The notes under the pieces: model-generated
What the model saw: only the letters and a program-made list of their open reading frames with translations
What the model was told of the DNA's origin: nothing
Databases searched by the model: none
In this document: piece by piece, positions 15,090 through 49,579 of the stretch
Position numbering within the stretch: the stretch's first letter is position 1
How the letters are laid out: the number at the start of each line of letters is the position of its first letter
Assembly (NCBI RefSeq): GCF_030695525.1
Contig: NZ_JAUYSS010000020.1
Coordinates: 1 to 64,000, forward strand
DNA: 64,000 bases
DNA from: Daejeonella sp.
GTDB lineage: Bacteria > Bacteroidota > Bacteroidia > Sphingobacteriales > Sphingobacteriaceae
Direction: 5' to 3'
Position numbers and translations under genes: made by a program

Positions 15090-15090
15090 A

Positions 15091-27698: not shown

Positions 27699-27703
27699 GT
27701 TGT

Positions 27704-28468
27704 TTAAAAAGTTATTGTTTGTCCACCATCAATAATAAAACAAGAACCGGTTATAAACGATGCTTTTGGAGAACTTAAAAAAAGAACTAAATTCGCTACT
27801 TCTTCGGGCTGACCAAATCGTTTCAAGGGTACTTTTTCATTAAGCATTTTCAATACCGCTTCTGAATTGTCATTCATTTTTTTCCCCCATGTACCATTTT
27901 CTACCCAGATATTTCCGGGCGCTACAACATTAACTCTGATGTGAGGCGCTAGCTTGTGGGACAAGATTTTTGAAAATGATATCAGTGCTGACTTAGCCAC
28001 ACTGTAATCAGTTGGAGCGCCTATATATTCGATTCCAGCAATCGAGGAAACAAAAACAAAAGCCCCTTCTTTTACCGATCGACTGAATACCCTGGCGGTA
28101 TTTACAGCTGTATCAAAGTTTGTAGCCCATGAATTTTTCCATAAGTCCTTTCCGTTTATTGCATTATTTAGACTTTGTCCATTTCCAACATTTGAGATAA
28201 CCACATCGATGGATCTGTTTCCTTTTAGTGTTTTCGAAATTTTCACCAAACAATTTTCAAGTTCCGACTCGATTTTTGCATCAGCGTTATAAAAAAAAAC
28301 CCGGTTCTCATACTGTTCGTTTAATGCTACTTCAACCTCTGTCTTTGAATTCCTGGATACAACGTGTACAACAGCTCGCTCTAATAGAAAGCTCTTGACT
28401 ATTGAAAGACCTATTCCATTAGTACCCCCAATTACCACTATGGTTTTATTGTCTAATTCCAGCTCCAT
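27704..28468 (-). CDS. SDR family oxidoreductase
   Basis: 254 residues. GGTNGIGLSIVKSF (NAD(P) loop), VVISNVGNG, VFVSSIAG and the catalytic Y-x3-K in TDYSVAKSALISF are all present, with VNVVAPGNIW after it. A complete, probably active short-chain reductase. It is encoded four bases after the CMP-sugar synthetase and next to a second, different SDR. Two paired SDRs suggest a redox step, or an oxidation-reduction epimerisation, on the nonulosonic acid or its precursor. Confidence 0.83.
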   Translation of the reverse strand: MELELDNKTIVVIGGTNGIGLSIVKSFLLERAVVHVVSRNSKTEVEVALNEQYENRVFFYNADAKIESELENCLVKISKTLKGNRSIDVVISNVGNGQSLNNAINGKDLWKNSWATNFDTAVNTARVFSRSVKEGAFVFVSSIAGIEYIGAPTDYSVAKSALISFSKILSHKLAPHIRVNVVAPGNIWVENGTWGKKMNDNSEAVLKMLNEKVPLKRFGQPEEVANLVLFLSSPKASFITGSCFIIDGGQTITF

Positions 28469-28471
28469 TGG

Positions 28472-29158
28472 TTACTTTATTAAAAACTCTTTCATTAAGG
28501 CAGAGCACATTTTTAAATCTTCCGACGAATCAATCTCAAACATTTTCCAAAAATCCATTTCAACAAGGCCAATCCTATCACCAAATCTATTATTACCATT
28601 GATAAGAACTTCTGGTTTAAAGAGGTAAAAAGATCCATTCTCAATATATTGTTTCGGAATATCCTGGCGGCGTTTTCTATTTCTCCAATCGTAGTTTACG
28701 CTTTCTAAAATTCCCGTATCGTTCCTTTGCCAGAAAAACAGATCTTCCGCAATACTACAAGAAAAAAAGGAATCGAATTCCCCGGATTGCGCCAGCTTAA
28801 TACCTCTAGCCACGTCGGCTGCTTCTCTTAAAGGAGAAGTAACCTGAGGAGCTAGCACCCAATCAATTTTTTCGTCTTCAATTTTGGATATGTAATCAAT
28901 ACCATGAATCCATGCTTCTTCAGATGTAGCAAAGTCCCCAGAAATGTCATCTGGTCGCTTTATTGTTTTAGCTCCATACTTCGCCGCAGTTTCTAAAATT
29001 TCATCCGAGTCCGAACTTACCCACGCAGAATTTGCACCTCCTTCCAGGCAATTTTGAATTGTCCAGGCGATCAAAGGCTGCCCACAAAAATCAATTATGT
29101 TTTTCTTGGGCAAGCCCTTTGACCCGCCTCTAGCTAAAATTATAGATACCGTATTCAT
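28472..29158 (-). CDS. CMP-nonulosonate cytidylyltransferase (NeuA/LegF-like)
   Basis: 228 residues. The signature SIILARGGSKGLPKKNI starts at residue 5; WVSSDSDEILETAAKYGA and RPDDISGDFATSEEAW follow the NeuA/LegF pattern, and APQVTSPLR is the nucleotide-sugar site. It activates an eight- or nine-carbon 2-keto sugar acid with CTP. The stop directly abuts the TIM-barrel gene's side (no gap at 29158/29159). It probably serves the synthase at 32644-34536; whether it also serves the PseI-like product is unknown. Confidence 0.9.
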   Translation of the reverse strand: MNTVSIILARGGSKGLPKKNIIDFCGQPLIAWTIQNCLEGGANSAWVSSDSDEILETAAKYGAKTIKRPDDISGDFATSEEAWIHGIDYISKIEDEKIDWVLAPQVTSPLREAADVARGIKLAQSGEFDSFFSCSIAEDLFFWQRNDTGILESVNYDWRNRKRRQDIPKQYIENGSFYLFKPEVLINGNNRFGDRIGLVEMDFWKMFEIDSSEDLKMCSALMKEFLIK

Positions 29159-31656: not shown

Positions 31657-32514
31657 TTATTTAAGGCTTATACTAGCTACAATTGTGTCAGCCTTTCCTA
31701 TTGATGCCAATTGCTGAGCATAAGCGTTGTCAAGTTCTTTGGAACTTAAAAACGACCAATTTGCGTGTCCCCCTGGCCTATCATTGGAAAGCCAATGAAG
31801 GTGATTCGACAGTCCGTATCTTTGGACTTGTTTCACCCAGTTTAATTTTAGGCCGCTTTTCCTAATTAAGTCAACCATTGTGTGTTGGTTAAACAAAAAA
31901 AGATGTTGGCTCCAATATGTAAAATTTGAAAAAGCTTCGTTCTTATACAAGGTCAGCAATGCATCATCGCTACTAGGAACTTCGATAATAATTTCTCCAT
32001 TCACATTCAACAATTTTGATAGTTCGACTAAAACTGAAGCTGGATCCGAGAGGTGTTCAAACACATGGAATGAAGTAATAAGATCGTATCGGGAAGTCGA
32101 ATTAGCTAATGCTTCACTTAAGGACTTCCAAACTTTAAGGCCTTGTTCAGCAAAAAAGGGCTGCATTCTTTCTTCAAGCTCTACACCATCCGACTTATTG
32201 GAAAATAATTTCGATTTGATAAGAAATCCGCCATTTCCACATCCAAAATCCAAGACATTTTTACCAATTAATTTCGGTTTAAACATCTCAAATCTACGTA
32301 AGTCATCTGTCTCAGTCGATTTAAGCCAATCACTGATTGAAATTTCTGTGGAGTGCATTTTGCCTTCCTCGTAGTGTCGTTCTGAAATGTGATCAGTACG
32401 GGAAAGTGTAACCAAACCGCAATTAGTACATTCAATTACTTTAATTTCTTCTATGTCTCTGACTTTTCCAGGTCTATCTACGAAATCACTTTTATCACAT
32501 AAGTAACAAACCAT
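31657..32514 (-). CDS. SAM-dependent methyltransferase with N-terminal zinc ribbon
   Basis: 285 residues. The N-terminus carries CYLC (3-6) and CTNC (32-35), a four-cysteine zinc-binding pattern seen in sugar C-methyltransferase relatives. The Rossmann core has VLDFGCGNGGFL and SFHVFEHLSDPASVL. Carbon or nitrogen methylation of an activated sugar is possible. It is ten bases from the next methyltransferase gene; a 129-base gap separates it from the NeuB fusion gene upstream. Confidence 0.8.
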   Translation of the reverse strand: MVCYLCDKSDFVDRPGKVRDIEEIKVIECTNCGLVTLSRTDHISERHYEEGKMHSTEISISDWLKSTETDDLRRFEMFKPKLIGKNVLDFGCGNGGFLIKSKLFSNKSDGVELEERMQPFFAEQGLKVWKSLSEALANSTSRYDLITSFHVFEHLSDPASVLVELSKLLNVNGEIIIEVPSSDDALLTLYKNEAFSNFTYWSQHLFLFNQHTMVDLIRKSGLKLNWVKQVQRYGLSNHLHWLSNDRPGGHANWSFLSSKELDNAYAQQLASIGKADTIVASISLK

Positions 32515-32643: not shown

Positions 32644-34536
32644 CTACATCAGTTTCTGTAGTTTTTCGAGTGCTATCCAAAAGCCTTCTCCATTATTTTT
32701 GTGGCCCTGCCATATTTCAGGAATAAACGTAGCATTTGGACACCCCTCATTTAATATTTTACCAAGTCTCACAAAATCCATGTCACCCTCACCTATTTGC
32801 AAGCCCTCGCCATTTAACCCTTTAGCATCACCCATATGAATGTGTGCTGTAAATGGAGCAATTTTCTCGGCAAAATCATAGAAATCATACTTAAAATAAT
32901 TACAGGTCAGCATACTATGTGACACATCAAAACACATTCGCAAGTTATACTGCTTACAGTATTCTATAATCTCGTCCACATGAACAAAAATATTCTGGTA
33001 GCGCTGCCCGCCGAAATGCCATGGAAAAGGGGCCATTGTCTGAGGAATAATCTCAACACCTTCAGTGTCCAGTTCTGCCAGGCTTTCAAAAAAACGCTCG
33101 TAATATGATTTTTTTATGCTCTCCGGAAAAGGAGCATCCATACTGAATCCGCCAATATTTGCAACGATCTGTGGTTTGGCTTCCTTCGGAAAAAATGCCT
33201 TCAACTTCCGGGTTATATCAATAACCTTTTGCGTTTCTATCATGGAAATTTTCCGATATTCAGCGTCTGGCGATGCAAGATCCATTAAATGACTGCCTTT
33301 AAAGAGTTCAGGTGCATGAACTACAAAACCAAAATCATATGTCCCCCTTAAAAAATCGTTAATATTTAAGTCCATGTCCGAATAGGAGAGGTGGAACTCA
33401 AACATGTCGGGCTTAATCATTTCAACATATTTCCCGAAATCGTGATATCGAACCGGAACTCCCCATGGATGCTTGAAAGTATAATTCTTTATAATCTCTT
33501 CTTCATCGCTTAAATCCGTTTTGAAAAAGAAATCTTCAAAATCCATGTCACGGTTTAGCTTCAGACCAATTAAGTCCTCGTAGTTTTGAGGCGATAAGCC
33601 TTGTCCGGGACTAAGAACTTTTACATCTTCCGGATTTACGATTGCTCCCTTTTTTAAATCCCGAGCCGCTACCAGGCTTTTACCTAGATTCTCCCTGTTT
33701 ATCATCTCCCCCTGACTCAATTTTCGGCTTCCCGCTTCACCTAATGCCATCTCTATTTCTCTGCAGCCGTTGACCATACTCTTGAACTCTTCAAATTCAA
33801 GGCTTGCCGCGTGATCTGGCCCCTCCATTTTCCTGTCTAAAGTGAAATGACGCTCTATAACTTTAGCTCCCAAAGCGACCGCGGCTAAAGTTACATTAAT
33901 TCCCCTTTCGTGTCCGGAGTATCCAATTAGTGGATGAATTTCCTTCAATGATTGCATCCAGTTTAGGTTAATATCATGCAATGGAGCTGGATATGTACTA
34001 TTACAATGCAATAATACGAATGGAGCTTTTCTTTTATTTAGAAAATCTACAGTGAATTTTACCTCTTCTGATGTACTCATTCCGGTAGATAGAATCAGAG
34101 GCTTTTTAGTCTGTGACAATCTATCCAGCAATGGTAAATTTGTTAAATCAGCTGATGCGACTTTAAATGCAGCAACGTTGAACGATTCAAGTATATCTAC
34201 ACTAGTAATATCCCAGGGAGTACATAAATATAAGATCCCTTTGGTTCTGCAGTACTCAGACAATTTGCGTTGTTGGTCGACTGTTAGTTCAAATTTATTC
34301 AACAGATCAATTATATACTCAGTACCAAGATCTTCTCCGGATTTTTCTAAGCTTCTGGAACGGTACACCTCTTTAATATGCCTCATCTGAAACTTAGCAC
34401 AATCGGCTCCCATTTCAAGGGCTTTATCAATCATAAATTTGGCTCGTTCAAAATCACCATTGTGATTATTGCCGATCTCTGCGATTATAAAGGTCCTTTT
34501 TTCGCCAACCAAAAACTTGTCTATCTGTATTTTCAT
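32644..34536 (-). CDS. NeuB-family nonulosonate synthase fused to a xylose-isomerase-like TIM barrel
   Basis: 630 residues, nearly twice the usual NeuB length. Residues 1-270 are a NeuB barrel (AEIGNNHNG at 19-27, FKVAS near 124, HCNSTYPAP at 177-185, GYSGHE at 205-210, IERHFTLDRKMEGPDH at 227-242). Residues 282-337 form the SAF antifreeze-like domain (PGQGLSP). Residues about 355-630 are a second barrel of the sugar isomerase/AP-endonuclease-2 type, with possible metal ligands D537, H540, H565 and E606. NeuB enzymes condense phosphoenolpyruvate with an N-acetylated hexose; the second domain may supply or process the sugar. One base separates it from the CBS-GHMP kinase gene. GYSGHE has Gly where other members have Asp. 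Confidence 0.9.
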   Translation of the reverse strand: MKIQIDKFLVGEKRTFIIAEIGNNHNGDFERAKFMIDKALEMGADCAKFQMRHIKEVYRSRSLEKSGEDLGTEYIIDLLNKFELTVDQQRKLSEYCRTKGILYLCTPWDITSVDILESFNVAAFKVASADLTNLPLLDRLSQTKKPLILSTGMSTSEEVKFTVDFLNKRKAPFVLLHCNSTYPAPLHDINLNWMQSLKEIHPLIGYSGHERGINVTLAAVALGAKVIERHFTLDRKMEGPDHAASLEFEEFKSMVNGCREIEMALGEAGSRKLSQGEMINRENLGKSLVAARDLKKGAIVNPEDVKVLSPGQGLSPQNYEDLIGLKLNRDMDFEDFFFKTDLSDEEEIIKNYTFKHPWGVPVRYHDFGKYVEMIKPDMFEFHLSYSDMDLNINDFLRGTYDFGFVVHAPELFKGSHLMDLASPDAEYRKISMIETQKVIDITRKLKAFFPKEAKPQIVANIGGFSMDAPFPESIKKSYYERFFESLAELDTEGVEIIPQTMAPFPWHFGGQRYQNIFVHVDEIIEYCKQYNLRMCFDVSHSMLTCNYFKYDFYDFAEKIAPFTAHIHMGDAKGLNGEGLQIGEGDMDFVRLGKILNEGCPNATFIPEIWQGHKNNGEGFWIALEKLQKLM

Positions 34537-37780: not shown

Positions 37781-38497
37781 TTAAGCCTGAATACATCTTA
37801 CAAGGGTAAATGCCTCTGCGAGCGGACACCCGACAGCTACCCCCCAACGCTGAGCTTGTATTTTCAATGCTTCGGGGGACCGTGGATGTGGGAAATCACG
37901 TTTCTCAAAATCATACATCTCCATGCCCGTAATTTTTGCATTTAGATTATCTTCTGAAATGCTAAAAAATAAGTTCGGCAAAAAATGTCTCGGGTCTGTT
38001 GGCGATCTCCACTCTGTACCGGATGGTGTTTCAAATGTAATAATTGTTTTGACTGATTCATGCGACATTGGACGACAAGCAGTAATAACAGCTTCAAAAC
38101 ATCTTTGGTGATCAACATTCACATCTCCCCCATGATGTGTAAAGATAACTTCAGGTGAAAACGATTGCTTTTCGGCCTCCACAATTTTAATAATATCCAA
38201 TAAAGCAATACTATCAAACCTATTATCGGGAAGGTCGTAAGTCCTTACACTTTGGTAGCCAATTGATTTTTGAGCTGCCCTAATATTTGCATTATGAATG
38301 ACCAGCTCCTTTTTCCATAGTTCTGGATCGCGGTTGTTTGATCGGGATGTTATACCTTCCCCAAGTATAATGACGTGTGCGGCAACATTAAATTCTGAAA
38401 TCAATTTATTCATTGTGCCACCCAAGCCCAAAACCTCGTCGTCTGGATGTGCGACCACCACCATAATTCTTTTATTTCTTAAAAGGTTAATTATCAT
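37781..38497 (-). CDS. PIG-L family N-acetyl sugar deacetylase
   Basis: 238 residues. Zinc site AHPDDEVLGLGGTM (AHPDDE, 16-21), with the distal HxxH-like DHQRCFEAV in HHGGDVNVDHQ. PIG-L enzymes remove N-acetyl groups from sugars such as GlcNAc-PI and mycothiol precursors. Here it overlaps the metallophosphoesterase gene by 11 bases and so ends the ATP-grasp, epimerase, phosphoesterase cassette. A freed amine would be a natural substrate for the cassette's ATP-grasp ligase; this is inference. Confidence 0.88.
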   Translation of the reverse strand: MIINLLRNKRIMVVVAHPDDEVLGLGGTMNKLISEFNVAAHVIILGEGITSRSNNRDPELWKKELVIHNANIRAAQKSIGYQSVRTYDLPDNRFDSIALLDIIKIVEAEKQSFSPEVIFTHHGGDVNVDHQRCFEAVITACRPMSHESVKTIITFETPSGTEWRSPTDPRHFLPNLFFSISEDNLNAKITGMEMYDFEKRDFPHPRSPEALKIQAQRWGVAVGCPLAEAFTLVRCIQA

Positions 38498-39224
38498 ATC
38501 TCCAGGGGCTTGTTCTTATTATATTAGGGCATAAATTTTCATTGAAATCATCAAGGTCTCTAATGACTCCATCTGAATTTAAGATCGCCATTTTGTCGAT
38601 GCAAAATGAACTAATGGGTTGGTCGGCAAGAAAACACGCGGCGGTATCAATACCGATCTTTGATTTTGACACAAACGGCGTGAAAAAACCTGTGTGCCCA
38701 AAAATCACGCGGTAGCTCTGCATGTAAAGTTCTTCATGACTTATAAAATCATATCTGTTGAAAAGCAGTTCCTCAACTCTAATATTTTCAATTTTAATGG
38801 AGTAATTCTCAGGTTTAATTCCGCTATGAACTGCGATAAAAGAGTCGCTTTTCCAATAGGGCTTCAAACTTGCAAAAAAATCGCCATATTCAGACATCAG
38901 AATTTTCTTCCCTTCGTAAAAATCAGTTAGTCCTAAAGATTTAAGAGTGGCAATTCCTCCGTACTTTGCTAGATATTCTTTTGTCTTTATGTCTTCTGCT
39001 TCCAGTTTCATCCAGCAATGCTCATGATTACCAAGAAGAAAAGTACAATCCATGTTCTTACTTAGATTGATGATAAAATCTAATACAGCTCGTGGATTAT
39101 CCCCTTTATCCAGATAATCTCCGATAAAAATCAGCTCAGGGTTCTTATCATAGATGAATATATAATTCATCAATGATGTAAGCTTACTTATTTCTCCATG
39201 AACGTCACCAATTACAAACCTCAT
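38487..39224 (-). CDS. Metallophosphoesterase (PrpE/ApaH-like)
   Basis: 245 residues. GDVHGE (6-11), GDYLDKG (35-41), GNHEHC (65-70), AVHSG and VIFGHTGF provide the full set of metal ligands; GIDTAACF is typical of the Ser/Thr-phosphatase-like branch. It overlaps the epimerase gene as ATGA. The counterpart at 13636 belongs to a different branch of the superfamily, although gene order is the same, so the two cassettes were probably assembled separately. Confidence 0.87.
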   Translation of the reverse strand: MRFVIGDVHGEISKLTSLMNYIFIYDKNPELIFIGDYLDKGDNPRAVLDFIINLSKNMDCTFLLGNHEHCWMKLEAEDIKTKEYLAKYGGIATLKSLGLTDFYEGKKILMSEYGDFFASLKPYWKSDSFIAVHSGIKPENYSIKIENIRVEELLFNRYDFISHEELYMQSYRVIFGHTGFFTPFVSKSKIGIDTAACFLADQPISSFCIDKMAILNSDGVIRDLDDFNENLCPNIIRTSPWRYDN

Positions 39225-40102
39225 ACACTTTTGATGTAGGCTGCCAATTTTCCGTAGTAATCCTCTTTAACTGGAATTAATCCTTTCAATTTTTTATTTG
39301 AAAGAAAGAATGGTTCATAGCCTTTTTTTTCTTCATATAACTCGCCCTTGTTACTCAAGGTCTGTGCTTTTATGAATTCAAAAGTGTTATAGAAATCTGT
39401 TTCCATACCATAACAAACATTGAATATGTTTGTCCTTTCCTTCCATGCGTACCGTTCGATGAAAGAACCGATCATCTCACACAGATCATCAATATGAATG
39501 GTCTCCCAGTAAATTAAGTTCTTGGTGGAAAGCTGAATTGGAATATTATTTTTCAGCTTATATATCATATTGTAAATAAACCCGCTTTTCTTGTCCCCTC
39601 CATAAATACCAGGCAAACGCAGGATCACACAAACAACTGCAGAACTTTGACCAAAGAACGTCGTTATGCACTCGCCCATATATTTGCTAAGCCCATAAGT
39701 ACTTACCGGACCGATCTTATCCTCTTCGCATACCGGAGGTTGTTCCACAGGAGCATACACCGTCATCGATGAAATATAAATCACCTTTTGGGTTATATCA
39801 TGATCCTTCAGATATTGAAGAAAAGAAGCATAACCTATGGTATTCACAGCCAAGTCAGGATGACTGAGGTTGGTTGAGGATATCGAACTCAACTTTGCGG
39901 CAAGCACAATAATAAGATCGAATTTATAGGACTTCAACGAATTGTAGCTCTTAGGATCTTCAAAATCTATCTGAAAATAATTCGGTTGCTTAGAAATGCG
40001 CGAACCTGTTATGAAAACCTCCGAACCTATTTTATCTAAATAAGTGCATAGATGCCTACCCAGATAACCAGTAGCGCCAACAAGAAGAATTTTTTTAAGC
40101 AT
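39221..40102 (-). CDS. NAD-dependent sugar epimerase/dehydratase (extended SDR)
   Basis: 293 residues. VGATGYLGRHL (8-18), YISSMTVYAP (109-118), catalytic Y136/K140 in TYGLSKYMGE and RLPGIYGG are all standard. Longer than the counterpart at 14280. Overlaps both neighbours (4 and 8 bases), so it is translated together with the ATP-grasp and phosphoesterase genes. Substrate unknown. Confidence 0.86.
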   Translation of the reverse strand: MLKKILLVGATGYLGRHLCTYLDKIGSEVFITGSRISKQPNYFQIDFEDPKSYNSLKSYKFDLIIVLAAKLSSISSTNLSHPDLAVNTIGYASFLQYLKDHDITQKVIYISSMTVYAPVEQPPVCEEDKIGPVSTYGLSKYMGECITTFFGQSSAVVCVILRLPGIYGGDKKSGFIYNMIYKLKNNIPIQLSTKNLIYWETIHIDDLCEMIGSFIERYAWKERTNIFNVCYGMETDFYNTFEFIKAQTLSNKGELYEEKKGYEPFFLSNKKLKGLIPVKEDYYGKLAAYIKSV

Positions 40103-41036
40103 TATAGAAGATATTTTCCCAGCGCCTGTGCAAATACATATTTTCTACAGGGCTTTTGAAAGGGCCCTTGTAGTCCTTATCAAAGTATTCCAGATAAGCT
40201 CTTATAGGATCGGCTCCTCCCTCTATTTCCATTATGGTTGTTGTCGAAAACCTGGGATTAATTTCAAATACTTTAATGTCTCCAGATGGGGTCAGTATCA
40301 ACTGTACATTGAATGGACCGCAAGGTTTAAATTCTTCAACAATCTTTTTAACAATTTGATCGATCGCTTGATTATTTTCGGTTATAGCAATTTGAGTTAT
40401 ACCCTTTTTCTTGATTATTCGTTTACTGCTAATGCTCAAAAGATCGTTTCGATTATTTGTTAATGCACCAACAGTATACTCAACACCTGTGAGCATTGGT
40501 TGAATTAAGATTTCCTCGGGAGTATATCCTTCCAACTTGTAATAGGCATCCAGTTGGTCAGCATCCTTTATTTTCATTATGCCACGGCTGCCACGGCCTG
40601 AGATTGGTTTAATAAAAATAGGAAAACCAAGCTCGGAATTATAAAAATCACCAGTGTAAGAAATAACGTCTGATATATTCGCTTCTTTTAAGCGTTGCAT
40701 CAATACAAACTTGTTCAAACAAAGTTCAGAAAAATCTGCTGCAGGGCTAATTACTTTAACATCCCCGAAATCTTCAATATTTCGTTTCGCTTCTACGATT
40801 TCCTCATCAATAAGAGGAATGTAAAAATCTATTTTCAAGTTTTCTATCAATTCCTTAATCAAAATCCAATAGCTTTCGTCAGAAATCAAGGGACTGACAT
40901 GGAAATTTAAGTCAGGGTATAGGAACTTTAACTGAGGGTCAGCATCCACATAATGAATTTCGTAGTCAGAACTAAGTCTATCATGTAAATATGGGAATAA
41001 AGATCCTCCCAGTCCAGAAATCAGCAGCTTCCTCAT
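40095..41036 (-). CDS. ATP-grasp ligase (CarB-like)
   Basis: 313 residues. N-terminal domain MRKLLISGLGGSLFPYL; ATP-grasp elements NKFVLMQRLKEAN, FPIFIKPISGRGSRGI (ATP-binding Lys and glycine loop), ILIQPMLTGVEYTV and VFEINPRFSTTTIMEIEGG. It starts a cassette of ATP-grasp, epimerase, phosphoesterase and deacetylase. Same domain plan as 15091-16128 but clearly divergent, so it probably has a different substrate. Confidence 0.87.
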   Translation of the reverse strand: MRKLLISGLGGSLFPYLHDRLSSDYEIHYVDADPQLKFLYPDLNFHVSPLISDESYWILIKELIENLKIDFYIPLIDEEIVEAKRNIEDFGDVKVISPAADFSELCLNKFVLMQRLKEANISDVISYTGDFYNSELGFPIFIKPISGRGSRGIMKIKDADQLDAYYKLEGYTPEEILIQPMLTGVEYTVGALTNNRNDLLSISSKRIIKKKGITQIAITENNQAIDQIVKKIVEEFKPCGPFNVQLILTPSGDIKVFEINPRFSTTTIMEIEGGADPIRAYLEYFDKDYKGPFKSPVENMYLHRRWENIFYNA

Positions 41037-41778: not shown

Positions 41779-42810
41779 TTATATCATATCCCATGTTATT
41801 GGGTTATCGGCTTCAATATCTCTAGTTGCGGCTCTTCCAATGATCATGTTTATCATTGACGGCTGAATTCCATATCCCGGTCTTTTTATTACGATATCCT
41901 GATCCTGAATAATTTCTCCTTTGGAGATACTTCTAGCAGATAAGATACTTCTACGAGCGTTCTTATAGAATTCCATCTCCTCGTCCCGTGGCCCATTTTT
42001 CATCCCATCTCCGAGTCCAGACTCAATGTCCCGAATCTTCCTCACCATATCCGCAAGCTCATGAGGTTCAATTGCAAAAGCATGATCTGGCCCTTCCATT
42101 TTGCGGCTTAGGGTGTAATGTTTTTCAATCACTTTAGCACCAAGTGCAACTGCTGCGCAAGCAATATGATCGCCCATCGTATGGTCAGAATAACCTGTGA
42201 TTACATTAAATGCCTTCCTGATCGTATCCATTGCATTTAGGTTAGAGAGGTGGGGCGGGGCAGGATACACCGAGGTGCATTGTAAAACTATCAGATTATC
42301 GTTACCATTTCCCCTACAAATATTCACTGCGTTTTCGATCTCAGATAATTTACACATCCCTGCTGAAAACATCACAGCCTTCCCTGTTTTGCTAATCTCG
42401 TCTATCAGCCTAACATCAACCATATCAAATGATGCAACTTTTATAATTGGCATATCGACCCCCACCGCTATTTGAATTGCTTCCGAATCACAGGGAGAGT
42501 CAAGAAAATCAACTTGTTGCCTTTTACATATCTCTGATAATCTAGCATGCCAAGAACGGTCGATCTCAAGCTTTTCAATTAATGAGTAAATATCTTCTTT
42601 ATACATCCCCATTTTGGGAGTATTTTTGGAATAATGATTTTTCGCTTTAAAAGTTTGAAATTTTACTGCATCTACACCCGCACCGGCTGCTTTTTCTATT
42701 AATTCGCAGGCAAGATCAAAACTGCCATTATGATTACTTCCAATTTCTGAAATAATGTAACATGGGGATTCATTGGATATAGTCCGATACAGCGTCTTAA
42801 TTCCTTTCAT
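41779..42810 (-). CDS. pseI: Nonulosonate synthase (PseI/LegI-like NeuB family)
   Basis: 343 residues of normal length. SEIGSNHNG (21-29), AVKFQTFKA, IIKVASFD, QCTSVYPAP, GYSDHT (metal-binding His), IEKHYTLSRKMEGPDHAFA and the SAF domain (KRPGYGIQPS) are complete. It condenses phosphoenolpyruvate with a 2,4-diacetamido-2,4,6-trideoxyhexose. Its PseG-type neighbour points to pseudaminic acid; legionaminic acid is the alternative. The start at 42810 is in frame with the first conserved strand. Confidence 0.9.
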   Translation of the reverse strand: MKGIKTLYRTISNESPCYIISEIGSNHNGSFDLACELIEKAAGAGVDAVKFQTFKAKNHYSKNTPKMGMYKEDIYSLIEKLEIDRSWHARLSEICKRQQVDFLDSPCDSEAIQIAVGVDMPIIKVASFDMVDVRLIDEISKTGKAVMFSAGMCKLSEIENAVNICRGNGNDNLIVLQCTSVYPAPPHLSNLNAMDTIRKAFNVITGYSDHTMGDHIACAAVALGAKVIEKHYTLSRKMEGPDHAFAIEPHELADMVRKIRDIESGLGDGMKNGPRDEEMEFYKNARRSILSARSISKGEIIQDQDIVIKRPGYGIQPSMINMIIGRAATRDIEADNPITWDMI

Positions 42811-42843: not shown

Positions 42844-44259
42844 TCAATAATAATTTAATCGGAAGACTTTATATTTTATACTGTTATTCACGTAATCTCC
42901 CGCTTCCTCGAAACTAAGCGACTTAAAAACAGCTACTGAGCTGATATTTTCAGCTTTTACGATAGCCTTAAAACTCCCTTTGCCAATGCGATCAATCGAT
43001 TTCTTTAACATCAGCTTACCTAGGCCCTTGCTTCGGAAATCTTTGTCGACTGAATAATCAATTATAAAATGATCGCCTTTCAGGTCAAATCTCACTTGCC
43101 CGACCGGTTTGCCACTCCTTTCTAAAATAAATATCCTGGAGTTGCCTCCGGATAGTATCTTACTGAACCAAGCGATATGCTCTTTCCATTCTATTTTATT
43201 GTTATTTACTGCATTCATTCGAACAGCAGGCTCATTTGCCCAGGAAAACAAAAGCTTACAATCTTCAGATTTTACATCTCTCAGACTGATTGTCAACCCG
43301 AGAATTTTTCCTAATATTCTCTTGCTTGATTTTCCGTCTATCAGCCTCTTATTACCTCCAGAATTACTCAAAACAGATTTCACAGCCCTCGCGATATCCT
43401 TTTCTAAAAAATTTGCTGCATTTTCAAAAGCTCCCGATTGAAGGAACCTTTCAAAAATTATACGCTGATTTTCGGCATAAGTTCCCGAAATTACAATGCA
43501 ACCAGCAGCAAGGGCTTCAAAAAGTATCCCGCTTGATGGCACTATGGCAAGTTCTGATCTCAACATTAGCGCTAACATCTCATCCTCATTTATAGAATGA
43601 TGATGTTTTATCCTGATATCCTTGCCTACAAGACTTTTGAGGCTTTCCATTTGATCATATGCAGGACCTGTTATTACCACAATCTCCCGGAATTGTTCAA
43701 ATGGAATTATTGCTTTGGTGGTCGAGAGGGTCAGATTTTTGTAATCCCCACCCCCAAAACAGATCATTGCCGATTGTATTGTTGAGATTCTCCTTTTTTT
43801 TTGAGCCTGCTCTAAAAATGCGGGCCTTAGCAGAACGTAATCCAGTCCAAGTGCAAATTGTGTTGATTTTGTCGCCCGGTAGTCACTTTGAGAAACTCCC
43901 GGAGCGTGGTTAATTATGAGATCTGCAACGAACTCTGTTTCGTGCAGATCATCAATATAGATCAATTTTCCGGAAAGGGATTTAACTTTCTTTTGATACT
44001 CAATATCGAACGAGTAACCATCCAGCACAACCATGTCCTTATCCGATATGAGTGAATAGAAATCATCCTCGCTCTCGATAAAAATTACTTCAAACCCTGC
44101 CTTGTTGAGATCATCCTTAATACTTTCAGGGATGTGCCGGCAAACAAAAATAGGCTCAAATTCCGAATTCAGCATCTGAGCCAAAGCGATACAGCGCATC
44201 AAATGGCCCAAACCGATGCTCAGGCTTCCATCTGTTCTGATGTAAATCTTTTCTCTCAA
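42844..44259 (-). CDS. pseG: PseG-GNAT fusion (nucleotide-sugar hydrolase plus acetyltransferase)
   Basis: 471 residues. Residues 1 to about 320 are PseG-like: RTDGSLSIGLGHLMRC with catalytic H19, DGYSFD, YIDDLHETEFVADLIINHAPG, MICFGGGDY and IVPSSGILFEALAAGC. PseG removes UDP from the diacetamido trideoxy sugar. Residues about 325-471 are a GNAT domain (LRDVKSEDCKLLFSWANEPAVR, GQVRF, SVDKDFRSKGLGKLML) like PseH, which acetylates the 4-amino group just before PseG acts. Thus two consecutive steps are on one chain. It overlaps the class III aminotransferase gene by four bases (ATGA). Confidence 0.9.
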   Translation of the reverse strand: MREKIYIRTDGSLSIGLGHLMRCIALAQMLNSEFEPIFVCRHIPESIKDDLNKAGFEVIFIESEDDFYSLISDKDMVVLDGYSFDIEYQKKVKSLSGKLIYIDDLHETEFVADLIINHAPGVSQSDYRATKSTQFALGLDYVLLRPAFLEQAQKKRRISTIQSAMICFGGGDYKNLTLSTTKAIIPFEQFREIVVITGPAYDQMESLKSLVGKDIRIKHHHSINEDEMLALMLRSELAIVPSSGILFEALAAGCIVISGTYAENQRIIFERFLQSGAFENAANFLEKDIARAVKSVLSNSGGNKRLIDGKSSKRILGKILGLTISLRDVKSEDCKLLFSWANEPAVRMNAVNNNKIEWKEHIAWFSKILSGGNSRIFILERSGKPVGQVRFDLKGDHFIIDYSVDKDFRSKGLGKLMLKKSIDRIGKGSFKAIVKAENISSVAVFKSLSFEEAGDYVNNSIKYKVFRLNYY

Positions 44260-45620
44260 AGAACTTTCCTGAATACGGGTTTTGCCGGTGCACCGATCAA
44301 TAAACTTTCAAAACCATTTTCTAAGGCCTGTTTATATAATGGCAATACTTCATCAAAAGCCTTTGCAAAATACAGCACATCTTCTTCTGAATGAGAAAAG
44401 CATGGCACAAATGCACCTTGGAAAAGAACACCTCTTTTAATCATTTCCTGCATGACAAGTGTTCTCATTCCGTTAGAAACCTCGTTGAGGGAATCATAAA
44501 AGCTATAACCAATAAGCCAGTTGGTAGAGCTTATTTTAATACATTTGGAAAGACCGTGATCATTTATGATTTGATTGCACATCGAAATTAGCTTGTCGCC
44601 TATGGCATGATTATGTTCAATGACATTATATTGCTGAAACTCATCAATAGTAGCAATAGCTGCCGACATCGTGTGAGTTTCCCCGCCGTGAGTTGTGGAT
44701 ATCAAAAAAACCTTCTCTTCACCTTCTTTGGTAATACCGCCCAGATCCATTACATCGTTCTTTCCAGTAAGAGCGCAAAATGAAAAACCATTAGCAATCC
44801 CTTTGCCCCAGGTTGCCATATCGGGATCGAGATTCCATTTAGAGATAGAACCTGGGAAACTCGTTTTAAAACCAGTAACCATTTCATCCATGATAAAAAG
44901 AGCTCCGTTTTGATGGGTAAGCGCGATTAGTTCTCTGATATAAGTTTCCTTCTCAGTGTCGCTTCTATTGTCACTTTTTTCAGGTTCGGTTATGATGCAG
45001 GCAATCTGACCCGGGTAAGTCTCGAACATTGCTTTTACAGAAGCAATATCGTATGACTGGAATGTTACCGAAAGCTTTGTAATTTCTTCAGGAATACCTT
45101 TGTTACAGAGTGTTGTTCCTATGAACCAATCATCATAACTATAAAATGGGTGATCTTTAGGAAACGCAACAAGATTTCGCCCTGTCTTTGCCCTTGCCAG
45201 CTTAACAGCAGCTGTTGTCACAATGGAACCGTTCTTGGCAAATTTAATTCGATCATGGGCAGGCACCAGGGACAAAAATTTCTCTGCCATTTCTTTTTCA
45301 AGAACCGATGGTCTTTGAAAATTCACTCCATTGCCCAACTCATCTTGAATCGCTTGAAGTATAGATTGATATGCGTGGCCTAAACTTACAGATGTAAGCC
45401 CCATTGGGCAATCCAGGTACTCGTTCCCATCGATATCCCAAATATGAGAGCCTTTACCATGGGAAATAGCTGCAGGTGCTAATTGGGGAAACTGGTCATC
45501 GCCTTTTGAATAAGTATGGGCTCCCCCAGGAATCAGATTGTGAATCGCTTTTTTGTATGCGTTCGATTTATGAAAATTAGTAATGTTTCGAAGTTTAACT
45601 CCATTAAATGTACTTACCAT
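44256..45620 (-). CDS. Class III aminotransferase (glutamate-1-semialdehyde aminomutase-like)
   Basis: 454 residues. Fold-type I class III features: GGAHTYSKG, IWDIDGNEYLDCPMGLTSVSLGH, DEMVTGF (245-251) and the PLP lysine K273 in WGKGIANGFS. The family includes aminomutases and aminotransferases acting on small aldehydes or keto groups, and members recur in glycan and flagellin-glycosylation clusters. A sugar-aldehyde or sugar-ketone substrate is likely here. It lies 36 bases after the SpsF-like gene and overlaps pseG-GNAT. Confidence 0.86.
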   Translation of the reverse strand: MVSTFNGVKLRNITNFHKSNAYKKAIHNLIPGGAHTYSKGDDQFPQLAPAAISHGKGSHIWDIDGNEYLDCPMGLTSVSLGHAYQSILQAIQDELGNGVNFQRPSVLEKEMAEKFLSLVPAHDRIKFAKNGSIVTTAAVKLARAKTGRNLVAFPKDHPFYSYDDWFIGTTLCNKGIPEEITKLSVTFQSYDIASVKAMFETYPGQIACIITEPEKSDNRSDTEKETYIRELIALTHQNGALFIMDEMVTGFKTSFPGSISKWNLDPDMATWGKGIANGFSFCALTGKNDVMDLGGITKEGEEKVFLISTTHGGETHTMSAAIATIDEFQQYNVIEHNHAIGDKLISMCNQIINDHGLSKCIKISSTNWLIGYSFYDSLNEVSNGMRTLVMQEMIKRGVLFQGAFVPCFSHSEEDVLYFAKAFDEVLPLYKQALENGFESLLIGAPAKPVFRKVL

Positions 45621-45656
45621 AATAGTTAAAGCTGAGATGTTCTTGTCGATCTGGTG

Positions 45657-46409
45657 TTATCTGTTCATTGTAGAGTATCCGATCTCTGTAAACGGTGCGA
45701 TCAAATCCTTCAGCGATGGATGGGAGTCCAAATAGTCCACCATAGCCTGAATGGAAAACCTTGGCGCATCTTCCTTAAATTCCCGGAACAATATTCTGCA
45801 CACCGCGAGATCCTCCGGATTATCAACAGTTAAACGCAAATCCTTACGGTTAAGACTGTCCGGACATATCACCTTTGAAATCTTGAAATCGTTTTTATTT
45901 TCTCTGATATATAAAGAACAATGCTCAGATTGATGACGAGCATCTCCTTTATCATGAGATATTTCCATGGCAGATTGCGACATAATTTCGAATCCTGTTC
46001 CATCTATAATTTCATCCAAAAAAGTTGCATCCAACCCTTCATCAACATGTTTTTTCCATAAATATTCAACAGGTTCATAATAAAGAAAAGGAGATTCGCT
46101 TGTCACCCTGAAAATATCTGTCGCCTTTGCAAGCTTGCCGCACTCAACCAGTCTAGACAAAACATCATGCTCGTCACCGACAACATAACGCAGCCCTTTT
46201 TCTTCAGCAAGATGCTTAAAGACCTCGTTTTCAATACCAGTGGAAATTCCCAAAACGATCTCATCAATACAAGGTATCGTTTGAAGGCAGTTGATAATAT
46301 TATCCAGTATACGCGTTCCCTGATCAACATCCAGGTTTTGAAGCGGTTTCCCATAAAGTCGTGATCCTTGATTCCGACACGCGATAGCAGATACGAGACG
46401 TCTTTCCAT
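45657..46409 (-). CDS. SpsF-like cytidylyltransferase / sugar nucleotidyltransferase
   Basis: 250 residues. ACRNQGSRLYGKPLQNL is the nucleotide loop in the SpsF style (ARxxSxRLPGK in related proteins), and RILDNIINCLQ, DEIVLGISTG, YVVGDEHDVLSRLVECG and DLRLTVDNPEDLAVCR follow. SpsF proteins activate a sugar acid with CTP or act in related roles. It is five bases from the divergent NeuB-like gene, so these two probably work on the same molecule. Substitutions in the loop (N-Q-G in place of the common S-S/T-R) suggest an altered substrate. Confidence 0.8.
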   Translation of the reverse strand: MERRLVSAIACRNQGSRLYGKPLQNLDVDQGTRILDNIINCLQTIPCIDEIVLGISTGIENEVFKHLAEEKGLRYVVGDEHDVLSRLVECGKLAKATDIFRVTSESPFLYYEPVEYLWKKHVDEGLDATFLDEIIDGTGFEIMSQSAMEISHDKGDARHQSEHCSLYIRENKNDFKISKVICPDSLNRKDLRLTVDNPEDLAVCRILFREFKEDAPRFSIQAMVDYLDSHPSLKDLIAPFTEIGYSTMNR

Positions 46410-46414
46410 AATTA

Positions 46415-47416
46415 TTAAACAATATCCGAAGGTGTAACCGCAGCATTTCGTGATATGCTATTAGCAAGCCTTTTATTATAAACTGAATTTATATCTGTTA
46501 TAAAATTTTCCGACGAGGTTCGTTTAAGTACCAGATCCTGAGGTTCCAACACCTTACCACTCTCCAAACTATTTGAAGTAACAACATGTCGTCTAATCAT
46601 TTTTCTGTATCCTATTTCTGATTCACTCATACCATAGTCCTCACTTTCTGCAGAAACGCCTAATGCATAGTAGCAGTCTCTCAGGATCCTGGTAAACTCT
46701 TGAAACTCATCCGGGTTTAATGCCGCTTCAAAGTCTTCAAGCTTCATATTCTTACCCAAAGTTAAATGCTTTTCAAATACTGTTGCCCCAGCCCCCAAAG
46801 CCACTGCAGGTATCGCAAATCGCAAAGGGTCTATTGGATCTGTGTGATCCGCGAAGCCTATTTTAACGTTAGGGTGAATTTTACCCAGCGATTTCACATA
46901 TACACCAATCCTGGAAATCTGATTACTTTCTGTCGAGGTCGGGTATCCCTGAAATCCTGCAAAAACGCAAACCTTCTTACTTTCAAGAATTTCCAATGCG
47001 GTGCGAAGCTCTGATGCATAAGCACCTCCAGCTCCAAGAAGTACATAAGGAATTGAACTCTGACAAACCATATTGAGAAGTCCAATATTCGAAATATCTG
47101 TCCCATGAAGTTTTATAGTTTGTACACCGATCGATTCTGCCAGAATTAAGCTTCTTGTACCAAAAATATCCAGATAAAGATCAATGTTTAACGAATGAGC
47201 ATAGTCAACTAATTCTTTCCATACCTGATCTGGCATCTCCAGGGATCTAAAAAGATCGTAGTATTTATAATCAGGTGTAGCAAGCTCATCGGCATACACC
47301 AATTGGAACTTTGCAGCATCCGCTCCTGAATTTGCTGCTGCCCTTATAAGTAAACGTGCCTGTTCTGGTTTCCCCTCAAAACCTTGAGCTAATTCTGCAA
47401 TTATTTCAACTTTCAT
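46415..47416 (-). CDS. Divergent NeuB-family synthase
   Basis: 333 residues with the NeuB barrel plus SAF layout, but several conserved motifs are changed. The usual E-I-G-x-N-H-N-G is AELAQGFEG (7-15), F-K-x-A-S is IKLHGTDIS (101-109), H/Q-C-x-S-x-Y-P is FAGFQGYPT (152-160), and the G-P-D-H part is replaced by KLEDFEAAL after VFEKHLTLGKNM. The metal-ligand histidines are kept (H191 in FADHTD, H217 in EKHLTL), so catalysis is plausible with a different acceptor sugar. It is the third NeuB-type synthase here and sits with an SpsF-like enzyme, an aldo/keto reductase and a class III aminotransferase. Confidence 0.85.
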   Translation of the reverse strand: MKVEIIAELAQGFEGKPEQARLLIRAAANSGADAAKFQLVYADELATPDYKYYDLFRSLEMPDQVWKELVDYAHSLNIDLYLDIFGTRSLILAESIGVQTIKLHGTDISNIGLLNMVCQSSIPYVLLGAGGAYASELRTALEILESKKVCVFAGFQGYPTSTESNQISRIGVYVKSLGKIHPNVKIGFADHTDPIDPLRFAIPAVALGAGATVFEKHLTLGKNMKLEDFEAALNPDEFQEFTRILRDCYYALGVSAESEDYGMSESEIGYRKMIRRHVVTSNSLESGKVLEPQDLVLKRTSSENFITDINSVYNKRLANSISRNAAVTPSDIV

Positions 47417-47431
47417 TTTTACAAATATTAA

Positions 47432-48301
47432 TCATTCAAATGTAGACCAAAGTGCCGGATTAATTAGCTCAGCATCTTGATTTTTAAAAAAATCAGGATA
47501 AACAATATTTTTTTTATCTGCGGCGGCACATATTTCTTTAAGCTGTTCCAAACTGTCAACTCCTACAATAACATTATCCACCTCTATGAATGACAACACA
47601 TAATTAATACAGGCTTCTAATCTGGTGGTTCCTGACTGTTTAAGAAATTCCTCATAGCTGTCCCAGATAGATTCCCATCGGCTGAATTTTTTAGGACGTT
47701 CTTCTCGTTCCATCAACAATAGACCCTGTAGAAATGCCGACCTTACATGAACCTGGTTGCCATTCTCCTTTAATTTTTTAAAAAAGTTCTCGAAGCGCGT
47801 GTCTATCAAATTAAAAGGAACTTGGACAATACTCAATCCAGTAAGTTCATCTATTAAGCTTAATTCATCTGTTTCATAAACAGAAATACCCGTTTGTTCA
47901 ACCATAGACGAGGATTCCATTTCTGTCAGTGCTTCGTATAATTCCGCACCTCTATCTTCATTTAATTGATTAGGTTTGTGAAGCAATAAACCATATAAAC
48001 AAGGAATTTTCAACCTTTCCAATGAAGCTTCTACTGATTGATAAACCCATTGCCTAATGTTGGGGCATTGATTCGACAATGGGGGGAGTTTTGATATAAC
48101 TCTCCATCCATTTATACCCACTTTACCCAGTTGGGCTTCACTATCGCCATAAGCTATTGCTGTGTCGATGGTGTTTATACCTTGACTATTGGCGTAATTC
48201 AGAATGCAATCAATTTCCGACAGCTTAACTTGGCCCTTATTGTTAGCAATGCCATAATTTAACCCAAACTGCGCAGTTCCTAAGGCTAATTTGTCTATCA
48301 T
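47432..48301 (-). CDS. Aldo/keto reductase
   Basis: 289 residues. The catalytic tetrad is visible: D46 (NTIDTAIAYG), Y51, K71 (VISKLPP) and H108 (LLLHKP). NADPH-binding elements are near the C-terminus (YVLSFIEVDNVIVGVDS). Probably reduces a keto group or aldehyde on a sugar or acid intermediate. Fifteen bases separate it from the divergent NeuB gene, and it is read first of the subcluster. Confidence 0.87.
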   Translation of the reverse strand: MIDKLALGTAQFGLNYGIANNKGQVKLSEIDCILNYANSQGINTIDTAIAYGDSEAQLGKVGINGWRVISKLPPLSNQCPNIRQWVYQSVEASLERLKIPCLYGLLLHKPNQLNEDRGAELYEALTEMESSSMVEQTGISVYETDELSLIDELTGLSIVQVPFNLIDTRFENFFKKLKENGNQVHVRSAFLQGLLLMEREERPKKFSRWESIWDSYEEFLKQSGTTRLEACINYVLSFIEVDNVIVGVDSLEQLKEICAAADKKNIVYPDFFKNQDAELINPALWSTFE

Positions 48302-48409: not shown

Positions 48410-49579
48410 CTAATTAAAAATACTTTTCAAAACCTCAATGACTTTTGACTGTTGATCATTAGTCAATGACGAAAAAACCGGAATACTAATGGCACTTTTA
48501 AAATATTTTTCGGCTTCTTCGCAATATCCAATTTGGAAACCCATACTTTCATAATATGGTTGCCTATATACTGGGATATAGTGAAGATTCACATTTATTC
48601 CTGCCTCTTGAAATCGATCATAAACCTCTCTTTGGCTCTTATGGGTTGCCTTAACGTTAATTCGAATTGGATACAGGTGATAACTTGAGTATGTATCAGG
48701 ATTCTGCCAGGGAGTTACAACTGGTAAATTCTTCAGTTCATTATCATACAGCTGCGCAATCCTTTGACGCTCCTTCACAAATTGATTTAATCTGGTCAAT
48801 TGGCTTAACCCTAATGCTGCATGGATATCTGTCATCCTGTAGTTGTAGCCTAGGGTAATTTGCTGATAATTCCAGATTTCGTCTGAGGGCCTTGATTGCA
48901 TTTCATCTTGGTCACTGGTGATACCGTGACTACGGAGCCGTTGTAGTCTCTTCGATAGTTTCGAGTCATTTGTGGTTATCAACCCTCCTTCTCCTGTAGT
49001 AATTATTTTAACCGGATGAAAGCTAAATATGGTGATGTCACTGTAACGGCAATTACCAACCGGATCCCCTTTGTATTTACCCCCAATTGCATGAGAAGCA
49101 TCTTCAATTATTCTAAACCCATATTTCTTCGACAGTGTGTGTATGGCAGTCATTTCACATGACTGGCCTGCTAAATGTACAGGCATCACGATCTTAGGAA
49201 GCTTACCTACCTTTTCTGCTGCGACTAACTTTTCAGAGAGTTTCTCAACGTCCATATTGTAAGTGTGTGGATTTATATCGACAAAGTCTACTGAAGCACC
49301 ACAATAAATCGCGCAATTAGCTGAGGCTACGAAGGTAATAGGACTGGTCCACAACAAATCGCCTGGCCCTAGATCAAGTGCCAGACAAGCGAGATGTAGT
49401 GCTGCAGTTGCACTACTTAAAGCAATGGCGTGTTCTGCATTACAATAATTTGCGATTGCCTTTTCGAACGCTGGTAAGGCTGGACCCTGCGTTAGGTAAT
49501 CTGAGTGCAACACGTCAACTACGCTGTCTATATCCTGCTGACTAATGTCCTGCCGACCGTATGGTATCGAAGATATCAT
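48410..49579 (-). CDS. pseC: PseC aminotransferase (UDP-4-amino-4,6-dideoxy-N-acetyl-L-altrosamine synthesis)
   Basis: 389 residues. PseC-type N-terminus IPYGRQDISQQDIDSVVDVL, SDYLTQGP, SSATAALHLACLALDLGPGD, EDASHAIGG (159-167) and PLP lysine K191 (SFHPVKIITTGEGG). HLYPIRI and NLHYIPVYRQPYY also match PseC. It transaminates the 4-keto product of PseB, or of CapE, to the 4-amino sugar that the GNAT part of the PseG fusion then acetylates. No PseB gene lies nearby. A 203-base gap upstream separates it from the ABC exporter. Confidence 0.93.
   Translation of the reverse strand: MISSIPYGRQDISQQDIDSVVDVLHSDYLTQGPALPAFEKAIANYCNAEHAIALSSATAALHLACLALDLGPGDLLWTSPITFVASANCAIYCGASVDFVDINPHTYNMDVEKLSEKLVAAEKVGKLPKIVMPVHLAGQSCEMTAIHTLSKKYGFRIIEDASHAIGGKYKGDPVGNCRYSDITIFSFHPVKIITTGEGGLITTNDSKLSKRLQRLRSHGITSDQDEMQSRPSDEIWNYQQITLGYNYRMTDIHAALGLSQLTRLNQFVKERQRIAQLYDNELKNLPVVTPWQNPDTYSSYHLYPIRINVKATHKSQREVYDRFQEAGINVNLHYIPVYRQPYYESMGFQIGYCEEAEKYFKSAISIPVFSSLTNDQQSKVIEVLKSIFN

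Follow-up and report, generated by a model that had tools for sequence, protein, structure and literature searches.

Several bacterial routes to nonulosonic acids activated with cytidine monophosphate (CMP) have been described, and they provide the frame for four closely spaced genes found in Daejeonella sp., a member of the Bacteroidota (assembly GCF_030695525.1, contig NZ_JAUYSS010000020.1, positions 1 to 64,000; this whole stretch of 64,000 nucleotides is called the window below). The genes lie at 44256-48301 and encode an aldo/keto reductase (AKR), a divergent NeuB-type protein named NeuB2 here, a cytidylyltransferase-like protein, SpsF2, and a class III aminotransferase. An earlier note on this DNA had proposed them as a possible pathway of their own, distinct from those leading to pseudaminic (Pse), legionaminic (Leg) and neuraminic (Neu) acids. 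The picture that emerges from the analysis is a different one: on balance, and with moderate confidence, we regard the four genes as the middle of an operon-like row whose product is a CMP-activated and probably tailored Pse-type acid, with NeuB2 working together with SpsF2.

The published accounts cited here were accessible in part, and our statements about them hold for those parts. The CMP-Pse pathway (PseB, PseC, PseH, PseG, PseI and PseF) resembles the window in that the four genes have PseC on one side and a PseG-PseH protein and a canonical NeuB/PseI on the other; it differs in that the window adds the AKR, the class III aminotransferase and NeuB2, and that SpsF2 replaces PseF in the row. 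The sps pathway of Bacillus subtilis, which leads to Leg, has an SpsF-type cytidylyltransferase, and spsF is reported to be needed for the transfer of Leg to the forespore surface, the mutant not having been complemented (PMC7439481). Here the differences are that the NeuB of this pathway, SpsE (1vli), does not have the GFQ and GG substitutions of NeuB2 in a HMMER alignment, and that the accessible text names no AKR (PMC7439481). In the Pse locus of Vibrio sp. B9-25K2, an AKR and an SpsF stand beside PseC, and NeuA is absent; the two are fused, the fusion was proposed to replace NeuA, and mass spectrometry signals were assigned to PseAc2, while a second NeuB and a class III aminotransferase are not mentioned in the accessible text (PMC7371886). 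The O-antigen locus of Legionella pneumophila Sg6/Sg12 also shares much with the window, namely PseG, a "glutamate-1-semialdehyde aminomutase", an acylneuraminate cytidylyltransferase, an aldo/keto reductase, a DegT aminotransferase, CapD and NeuB, but one NeuB is listed for it, together with additional HisF/HisH and a lipopolysaccharide biosynthesis protein (PMC3694923). As for the proteins, NeuB, PseI and SpsE of known structure (1xuu, 8h2c, 1vli and 3g8r) have in common with NeuB2 the TIM barrel followed by a SAF domain, the metal histidines and several catalytic-site residues, whereas NeuB2 lacks the NHxG motif, has a loop of 14 residues and is changed at several positions on the phosphoenolpyruvate (PEP) side. 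The sfmABCDE genes of Shewanella were considered as a counterpart and set aside, being a different set (NeuB, a thiamine pyrophosphate enzyme, a reductase, a methyltransferase and an ATP-grasp protein; PMC3765264). No recognised description of the NeuB2 branch or of its pairing with SpsF was found in the literature searched, a body of text that leaves most subscription journals outside.

The row itself consists of seven compact genes, all on the minus strand. In the order of transcription they are PseC, the UDP-4-amino-4,6-dideoxy-N-acetyl-altrosamine transaminase (48410-49579; TIGR03588, 549.6 bits, cut-off 423.5); the AKR (47432-48301; PF00248, 90.9 bits), of a kind that recurs as an accessory gene in Pse loci; NeuB2 (46415-47416); SpsF2 (45657-46409; PF02348, 26.0 bits, cut-off 22.6), a probable CMP-nonulosonate synthetase; the class III, HemL-like aminotransferase (44256-45620; NF004856/PRK06209, 525.4 bits, cut-off 486, and PF00202); a fusion of PseG and PseH, that is, of a sugar hydrolase and a GNAT protein (42844-44259; TIGR03590, 200 bits, above the cut-off, with the PseH part at 44 bits for TIGR03585, under its cut-off of 93.1); and a canonical NeuB/PseI in which NHNG is present (41779-42810). 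The gaps within the four-gene set are 36, 5 and 15 bases, and the seven genes are inferred to be co-transcribed as one operon-like row. The earlier note was right about the four genes as such, whose minus-strand reading frames and families could be confirmed. Their separateness from Pse is another matter: they are embedded in a Pse-type row, marked as such by PseC and PseG, both above the curated cut-offs. A pathway distinct from Pse is not supported: the AKR and the aminotransferase recur in Pse loci without NeuB2, and NeuB2 and SpsF diverge jointly whereas the aminotransferase does not.

NeuB2 is rare: among 395 genomes from the phylum of the window, two contain it at an E value of 1e-60. 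A scan of genome contigs found it in a Zoogloeaceae bacterium, Sediminibacterium, Marinoscillum, an uncultured Bacteroidetes bacterium and Chitinophaga pinensis, four of these five loci coming from records of metagenome-assembled genomes (MAGs); with the window and the genome G169 they make up the seven NeuB2 loci compared here. Searches of plasmids (E limit 1e-25) and phages (1e-15) did not detect it, and of ten pattern matches in viral contigs none could be confirmed as a relative. In all seven loci, from Bacteroidota to the Zoogloeaceae bacterium, the order is AKR, NeuB2, SpsF and class III aminotransferase, and the recurrence therefore makes the arrangement more than chance; the count includes L005, with an extra gene between AKR and NeuB2, L006, whose contig begins within the AKR, and L007, whose class III aminotransferase is non-orthologous. 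A canonical NeuB accompanies NeuB2 every time. The Pse setting recurs as well: PseB and/or PseC scores above its cut-off in five of the six loci besides the window, the sixth (L006) lying outside the test (PseB in L007, L008, L009 and L028; PseC in L005, L007, L008 and L028), and the same holds for PseI in the three loci tested (L005, 497.6; L007, 476.8; L028, 501.4 bits) and for PseG in the three tested (L005, L008 and L028).

What kind of protein is NeuB2? It carries the NeuB domain (PF03102, 119.6 bits) and a SAF domain (PF08666, 22.5 bits, cut-off 21), and its predicted structure (mean confidence, pLDDT, 91.1) has NeuB/PseI/SpsE-type structures as its 12 top Foldseek matches, with query TM scores of 0.65-0.82. 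It falls far under the curated cut-offs of both synthase models, with 140.2 against 399.65 bits for TIGR03569 and 108.3 against 340.25 bits for TIGR03586. The NeuB2 searches brought up further relatives, at 8532-9551 of L082 and 6542-8299 of L083; the latter is a single open reading frame of 585 residues in which a NeuB part (PF03102, 136.9 bits, residues 32-258) is joined to a cytidylyltransferase part (PF02348, 73.2 bits, residues 344-549). Two more members lie beside weaker SpsF matches (L139/L156 and L152/L157), and they were found by way of SpsF, so that in their case the adjacency is not independent evidence.

A phylogeny bears out the separateness of these proteins: with the pocket columns omitted, the 11 rows of the branch (seven NeuB2 and four relatives) separate from 41 canonical NeuBs with an SH-aLRT support of 99, in a quick tree with some long-branched rows, an earlier version of which took nine against 39 rows. 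A canonical NeuB and an SpsF were seen in the loci of all 11 members, two of these having been found through SpsF. The settings vary: L157 is a legionaminic locus (LegB 510.8, LegC 539.6 and NeuC 365.8 bits, all above cut-off), and L156 has LegC at 550.8 bits, above cut-off, with a dehydratase candidate that gave no match at the limit used. A NeuB2-SpsF-type pair therefore occurs in both Pse and Leg settings.

These data bear on the simplest alternative, that NeuB2 is an ordinary Pse, Leg or Neu synthase paralogue that has drifted while keeping the usual chemistry and a standard substrate. It does match the general NeuB models, and NeuB, PseI and SpsE are its closest folds. Yet it sits on a separate branch, it is changed at positions where 39 canonical NeuBs show little or no variation, a canonical NeuB is already present in all 11 loci, and two of the 11 members do not have the lysine aligned with K129, all of which makes a mere drifted copy very improbable.

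Residues are numbered below after the NeuB of Neisseria meningitidis (nmNeuB); profile and MAFFT alignments agree for the NeuB2 rows, and at 20-30% identity single aligned positions may be misplaced. According to the earlier note, the NHNG and GPDH motifs were lost and both metal-ligand histidines were kept. NHNG is indeed gone, replaced by AQGFEG in the window and by GFEG in all seven NeuB2 proteins; GPD(H) has become LED in the window, with the Asp aligned with D247 of nmNeuB retained, so the second loss is a partial one. The two histidines are in place (H190 and H216 in NeuB2, the first Met not counted). Unchanged in seven out of seven are E25, K53, Q55, K129, H215, H236, D247 and R314, and in the nine branch members of the earlier tree E25, K53, Q55, K129, D214, H215, H236 and D247, with R314 in eight. 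The members L139 and L152 retain G182, Q184, both histidines, K53 and D247, and a short loop (15).

The acceptor side is clearly altered. The loop at positions 55-80 has 14 residues in all nine of these members as opposed to 22-35 in 16 canonical rows; the published region for C4-C6 specificity, 70-85, overlaps it, and at the published NeuB specificity positions the residue of NeuB2 is of neither the Neu/Leg nor the Pse type. It is on such features that one may base the idea of a separate second pathway, in which NeuB2 would condense PEP with an unusual aldose, SpsF2 would activate the product, and the aminotransferase and AKR would decorate it. The NeuB fold with its SAF domain, the eight residues kept in every NeuB2 and the altered acceptor loop all speak for it. 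The changes do not stop at the acceptor, though, and the earlier proposal of a different acceptor sugar is right about the loop and the specificity positions but incomplete in its emphasis, since the PEP side is altered as well.

The positions that lie around PEP are 110, 129, 131, 132, 182 and 184 (PMC7371886), and the catalytic-site residues include Thr110, Lys129, Asn184 and Ser213, Thr110 having been used as a donor point (PMC6795526). In the 39 canonical rows, position 110 is always S/T and positions 132 and 213 are always S, with A/G/P/S at 131, C/A at 182 and S/T/N/A at 184. NeuB2 departs from these letters at 110, 131, 182 and 184 in all seven proteins, at 132 in five and at 213 in six. 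In the nine branch members, 110 is D/E, 182 is G and 184 is Q throughout, 213 is A in seven, and 132 is a residue other than S in six. Because the PEP side is changed, condensation with PEP should not be assumed for NeuB2, and this tells against the second pathway as just described. Read from the alignments, the substrate pocket looks rebuilt, and the chemistry may be new.

Could NeuB2 then have no reaction at all and serve SpsF2 or the canonical NeuB as a non-catalytic or regulatory partner? Its tight co-divergence with SpsF2, the natural fusion in L083 and the altered donor side would suit a pseudo-enzyme. Against this, the metal histidines, K53 and D247 are kept in nine of nine members and in the two further ones, and the new polar residues D, H and Q, invariant across the seven NeuB2 proteins, suggest a reaction under selection; we consider a purely regulatory role quite unlikely.

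The co-divergence is the observation that ties NeuB2 to its neighbour. Pairwise identities of NeuB2 and SpsF correlate with r = 0.98 across the seven loci (21 pairs, not independent of one another), compared with 0.17 for the aminotransferase and 0.40 for the AKR (21 pairs each) and 0.33 for PseC (15 pairs). This joint divergence, the altered motifs and the pocket changes sustain the view that NeuB2 and its SpsF partner form a distinct, altered pair. Inheritance of all four genes as a single unit was considered and rejected, as the aminotransferase diverges separately.

SpsF2 shows changes of its own. Its model (pLDDT 91.6) has a cytidylyltransferase (6oew, TM 0.83) as best structural match. 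The alteration of the nucleotide loop that had been noted earlier is confirmed, with LYGKPL in the window where the five SpsF1 rows compared, SpsF1 being the form met in loci without NeuB2, show LP-KV-; a second stretch reads RVTSESPF instead of RLT-DCPL. The signatures LYGKP[LI] and RVT[ST]ESPF occur in all seven NeuB2 loci. A profile of SpsF2 (E 1e-25) matched 24 of the 306 genomes sampled from this phylum, the window's own, but 453-bit matches were confined to two, the window's genome and G169, both carriers of NeuB2, and the next best reached 121 bits. Among the 18 weaker SpsF loci inspected, the first motif was legible in 17, none of them with LYGKP, and the second in nine, none with ESPF. 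The PF02348 scan missed several SpsF2 genes, and its lists were not used for statements of absence. As a minor observation, there is a weak match between SpsF2 and the N-terminal portion of the spiro-SPASM model TIGR04321 (34 bits, cut-off 250), and in L031 and L082 radical S-adenosylmethionine genes that match the remainder of the model stand close to related genes.

Which protein attaches the CMP? The question was approached from loci chosen for the aminotransferase. When 299 genomes of Pseudomonadota, the phylum of the Zoogloeaceae bacterium, were searched with NF004856, 17 matches came up at E 1e-100; 14 loci were kept after leaving out the Zoogloeaceae genome itself and L029 and L030, where a weak dehydratase match was the sole sign of nonulosonate genes. 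NeuB2 was the best match in none of these 14. In the stretches seen, eight have SpsF1, three a PseF-type gene, none both and three neither; two of the PseF-type genes, in L031 and L033, score 193 and 187 bits, under the cut-off of 205.7. SpsF and PseF thus seem mutually exclusive in these loci, and SpsF is therefore likely the CMP-transferase. By the same token SpsF2 probably fills the PseF slot, with CMP transfer as its expected role. That SpsF might serve NeuB2 alone was considered and dropped, as SpsF1 occupies the PseF slot in loci without NeuB2.

PseF above cut-off is found in none of the seven NeuB2 genomes, several of which are MAGs. In G247, G248, G249 and G251 the PseF matches reach 44.4 bits at best. 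In the window's genome the best match, 108.6 bits against the cut-off of 205.7, is at 28496-29149, within a PseF-like gene at 28472-29158. This gene matters to the notion of a separate second pathway, since it would free SpsF2 for a second acid. There is, on the other side, no second full set of precursor enzymes to go with the four genes; the AKR and the aminotransferase are found without NeuB2 and do not co-diverge with it; and the four NeuB2 genomes in which no PseF-type gene was seen (several being MAGs) would require one SpsF2 to serve two NeuBs. Taken with the changed PEP side, this leaves a second PEP-condensing pathway unlikely, though not negligible.

The AKR and the aminotransferase can now be looked at more closely. 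The AKR has the motifs DTA..YG, SK and LLLH, and an AKR is present in nine of the 14 aminotransferase loci, eight of which also match PseB and/or PseC. The model to which the aminotransferase belongs is named glutamate-1-semialdehyde aminomutase in NCBIfam; a housekeeping HemL was considered and rejected, the score for HemL being 179.9 bits against a cut-off of 527.3, with a HemL of 554.9 bits elsewhere in the genome. Homologues on plasmids do not fix the reaction of the aminotransferase. In a rhizobial Shinella, the PRK06209 homologue lies in a polysaccharide locus with no NeuB among the listed genes, and a search with the aminotransferase of L043 led to two more: one from Methylomagnum, which carries an SpsF1-like gene, transketolase halves and NeuB, and a haloarchaeal one with no listed NeuB. 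The Methylomagnum region (L045, 9235-15073), where an SpsF1-like gene, a split transketolase, a class III aminotransferase, a short-chain dehydrogenase/reductase (SDR) and NeuB lie together, looks like another nonulosonate-like set.

One specific product deserves mention, and it is compatible with the explanation we prefer: the AKR and aminotransferase would give 8-amino-8-deoxy-pseudaminic acid, and NeuB2 and SpsF2 would be tuned to that product. There are precedents, as an 8-amino-3,5,7,8,9-pentadeoxy-manno-nonulosonic acid occurs in the O-antigen of Flexibacter maritimus (PMC3210612) and the C8 oxidase KdnB starts the synthesis of Kdo8N in Shewanella (PMC5125639). For the 8-amino acid of Flexibacter (Tenacibaculum) maritimum, no linked gene cluster was found in the literature searched. 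AKRs usually reduce, which counts against the proposal; so do the occurrence of the AKR-SpsF fusion in a Vibrio reported to make PseAc2, which speaks against the AKR alone carrying out C8 oxidation and amination, and the finding of the NeuB2 branch without matches to both the AKR and the aminotransferase. We would call this particular product a plausible minority view, with the odds well against it.

In the explanation that we prefer, a Pse-type acid destined for a surface polysaccharide would be built by PseC, PseH, PseG and PseI from an L-arabino-4-ketose, perhaps supplied by an FnlA/CapE-like enzyme. This enzyme, a 4,6-dehydratase/5-epimerase, is encoded at 20396-21445 on the minus strand and is the best match of the genome to the PseB model; no PseB above cut-off was found in the window's genome, the best score being 327.2 bits at 20468-21433 against a cut-off of 407.75. 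FnlA/CapE and PseB have a 4-keto product in common, and the gene is a possible supplier of the PseC substrate. The canonical NeuB of the row has ordinary PEP-side residues and, in the alignment, a Phe at the Pse-type C2 position; Phe in Pse synthases corresponds to Gly in Neu and Leg synthases at a position numbered 132 in PMC7371886, which is 133 in the present count. SpsF2 would take the place of PseF and activate the acid with CMP. The AKR and the class III aminotransferase would be tailoring genes, common to Pse loci of other bacteria, with an 8-amino derivative formed by C8 oxidation and transamination, as in Kdo8N, as a plausible product. NeuB2, of NeuB fold and metal-dependent, with its short loop and rebuilt PEP side, would make or modify the acid that SpsF2 activates.

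As to how it might do so, we offer tentatively, and as something that may well prove wrong, that proteins of the NeuB2 branch do not use PEP: they would hold a finished nonulosonic acid and alter it before SpsF attaches CMP. Examples would be a C4 epimerisation by retro-aldol and aldol steps, or a pyruvate-dependent aldolase, the donor side being refilled by the new conserved side chains. If this is true, NeuB2 would represent an enzyme class new to nonulosonic acid metabolism, at work in both Pse and Leg pathways. There is a practical side as well. Predictions of the sialic-acid-like sugar made by a bacterium draw on its NeuB sequences, and a branch of the NeuB2 type, with the metal site kept and the PEP-side residues not, would be miscounted as an additional synthase. 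The branch marks glycan loci with a likely extra step, of which no description was found.

A number of observations weigh against the explanation that we prefer, or against parts of it. Positions 132, 182 and 184 are less conserved among known NeuBs (PMC7371886), and the weight therefore falls on 110, 132 (in the present count) and 213. Even at 110 the D/E is not branch-wide, L139 and L152 having M/L there, and in the same two of 11 members the residue aligned with K129 is D/E, in a less sure part of the alignment. The identities of NeuB2 correlate with those of the canonical NeuB/PseI too (r = 0.71, 21 pairs), and all these correlations, the 0.98 included, rest on seven NeuB2 loci, four of them from MAG records, with pairwise identities that are not independent. 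Matches to the AKR and the aminotransferase were not found near the branch members L082, L083, L156 and L157. The canonical NeuB of the window is below both cut-offs and does better with the NeuB model TIGR03569 (357.5 bits, cut-off 399.65) than with the PseI model TIGR03586 (289.8 bits, cut-off 340.25). As regards the activating step, SpsF2 has a Glu where SpsF1 has an Asp, which could mean that it is no CMP-transferase. Finally, the window's genome, G169 and G250 carry full-length PseF-like genes below the cut-off (108.6-153.5 bits); the PseF-type genes of L031 and L033 are likewise under it, and the gene at 28472-29158 could itself activate the Pse product.

Other parts of the window and of the related loci hold genes that may also concern ulosonic acids. 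The PseF-like gene belongs to a group, spread over 26877-29158 and 31657-32514, that further comprises a methyltransferase-like gene and two SDR-like genes. Weak relatives (24-30%) of the methyltransferase-SDR-SDR set occur in three NeuB2 genomes (L027, L076 and L077), with KdsB-like and Gfo/Idh-like genes; L027 and L077 have an HpaI-type aldolase too, and the fourth, L075, has an HpaI-like gene nearby. Together with the aldolase, this set perhaps represents a second, aldolase-based ulosonic acid pathway. A third NeuB homologue, at 32644-34536, is canonical and encodes 630 residues, with an extra C-terminal part past the NeuB match.

Genes for a calcineurin-like phosphoesterase, an SDR/epimerase and an ATP-grasp protein stand together twice in the window, at 13636-16128 and 38487-41036. 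In L007 and L028 the canonical NeuB has phosphoesterase-like and ATP-grasp-like genes beside it, and such genes were also read in L005. A PIG-L-type deacetylase is encoded at 37781-38497 (PF02585, 71.5 bits) and shares 64% identity with a deacetylase of the NeuB2 locus L009; PIG-L-like genes are also present in L040 and L042, in the latter near a formyltransferase-like gene, and a deacetylation followed by re-acylation of the sugar is a possible role.

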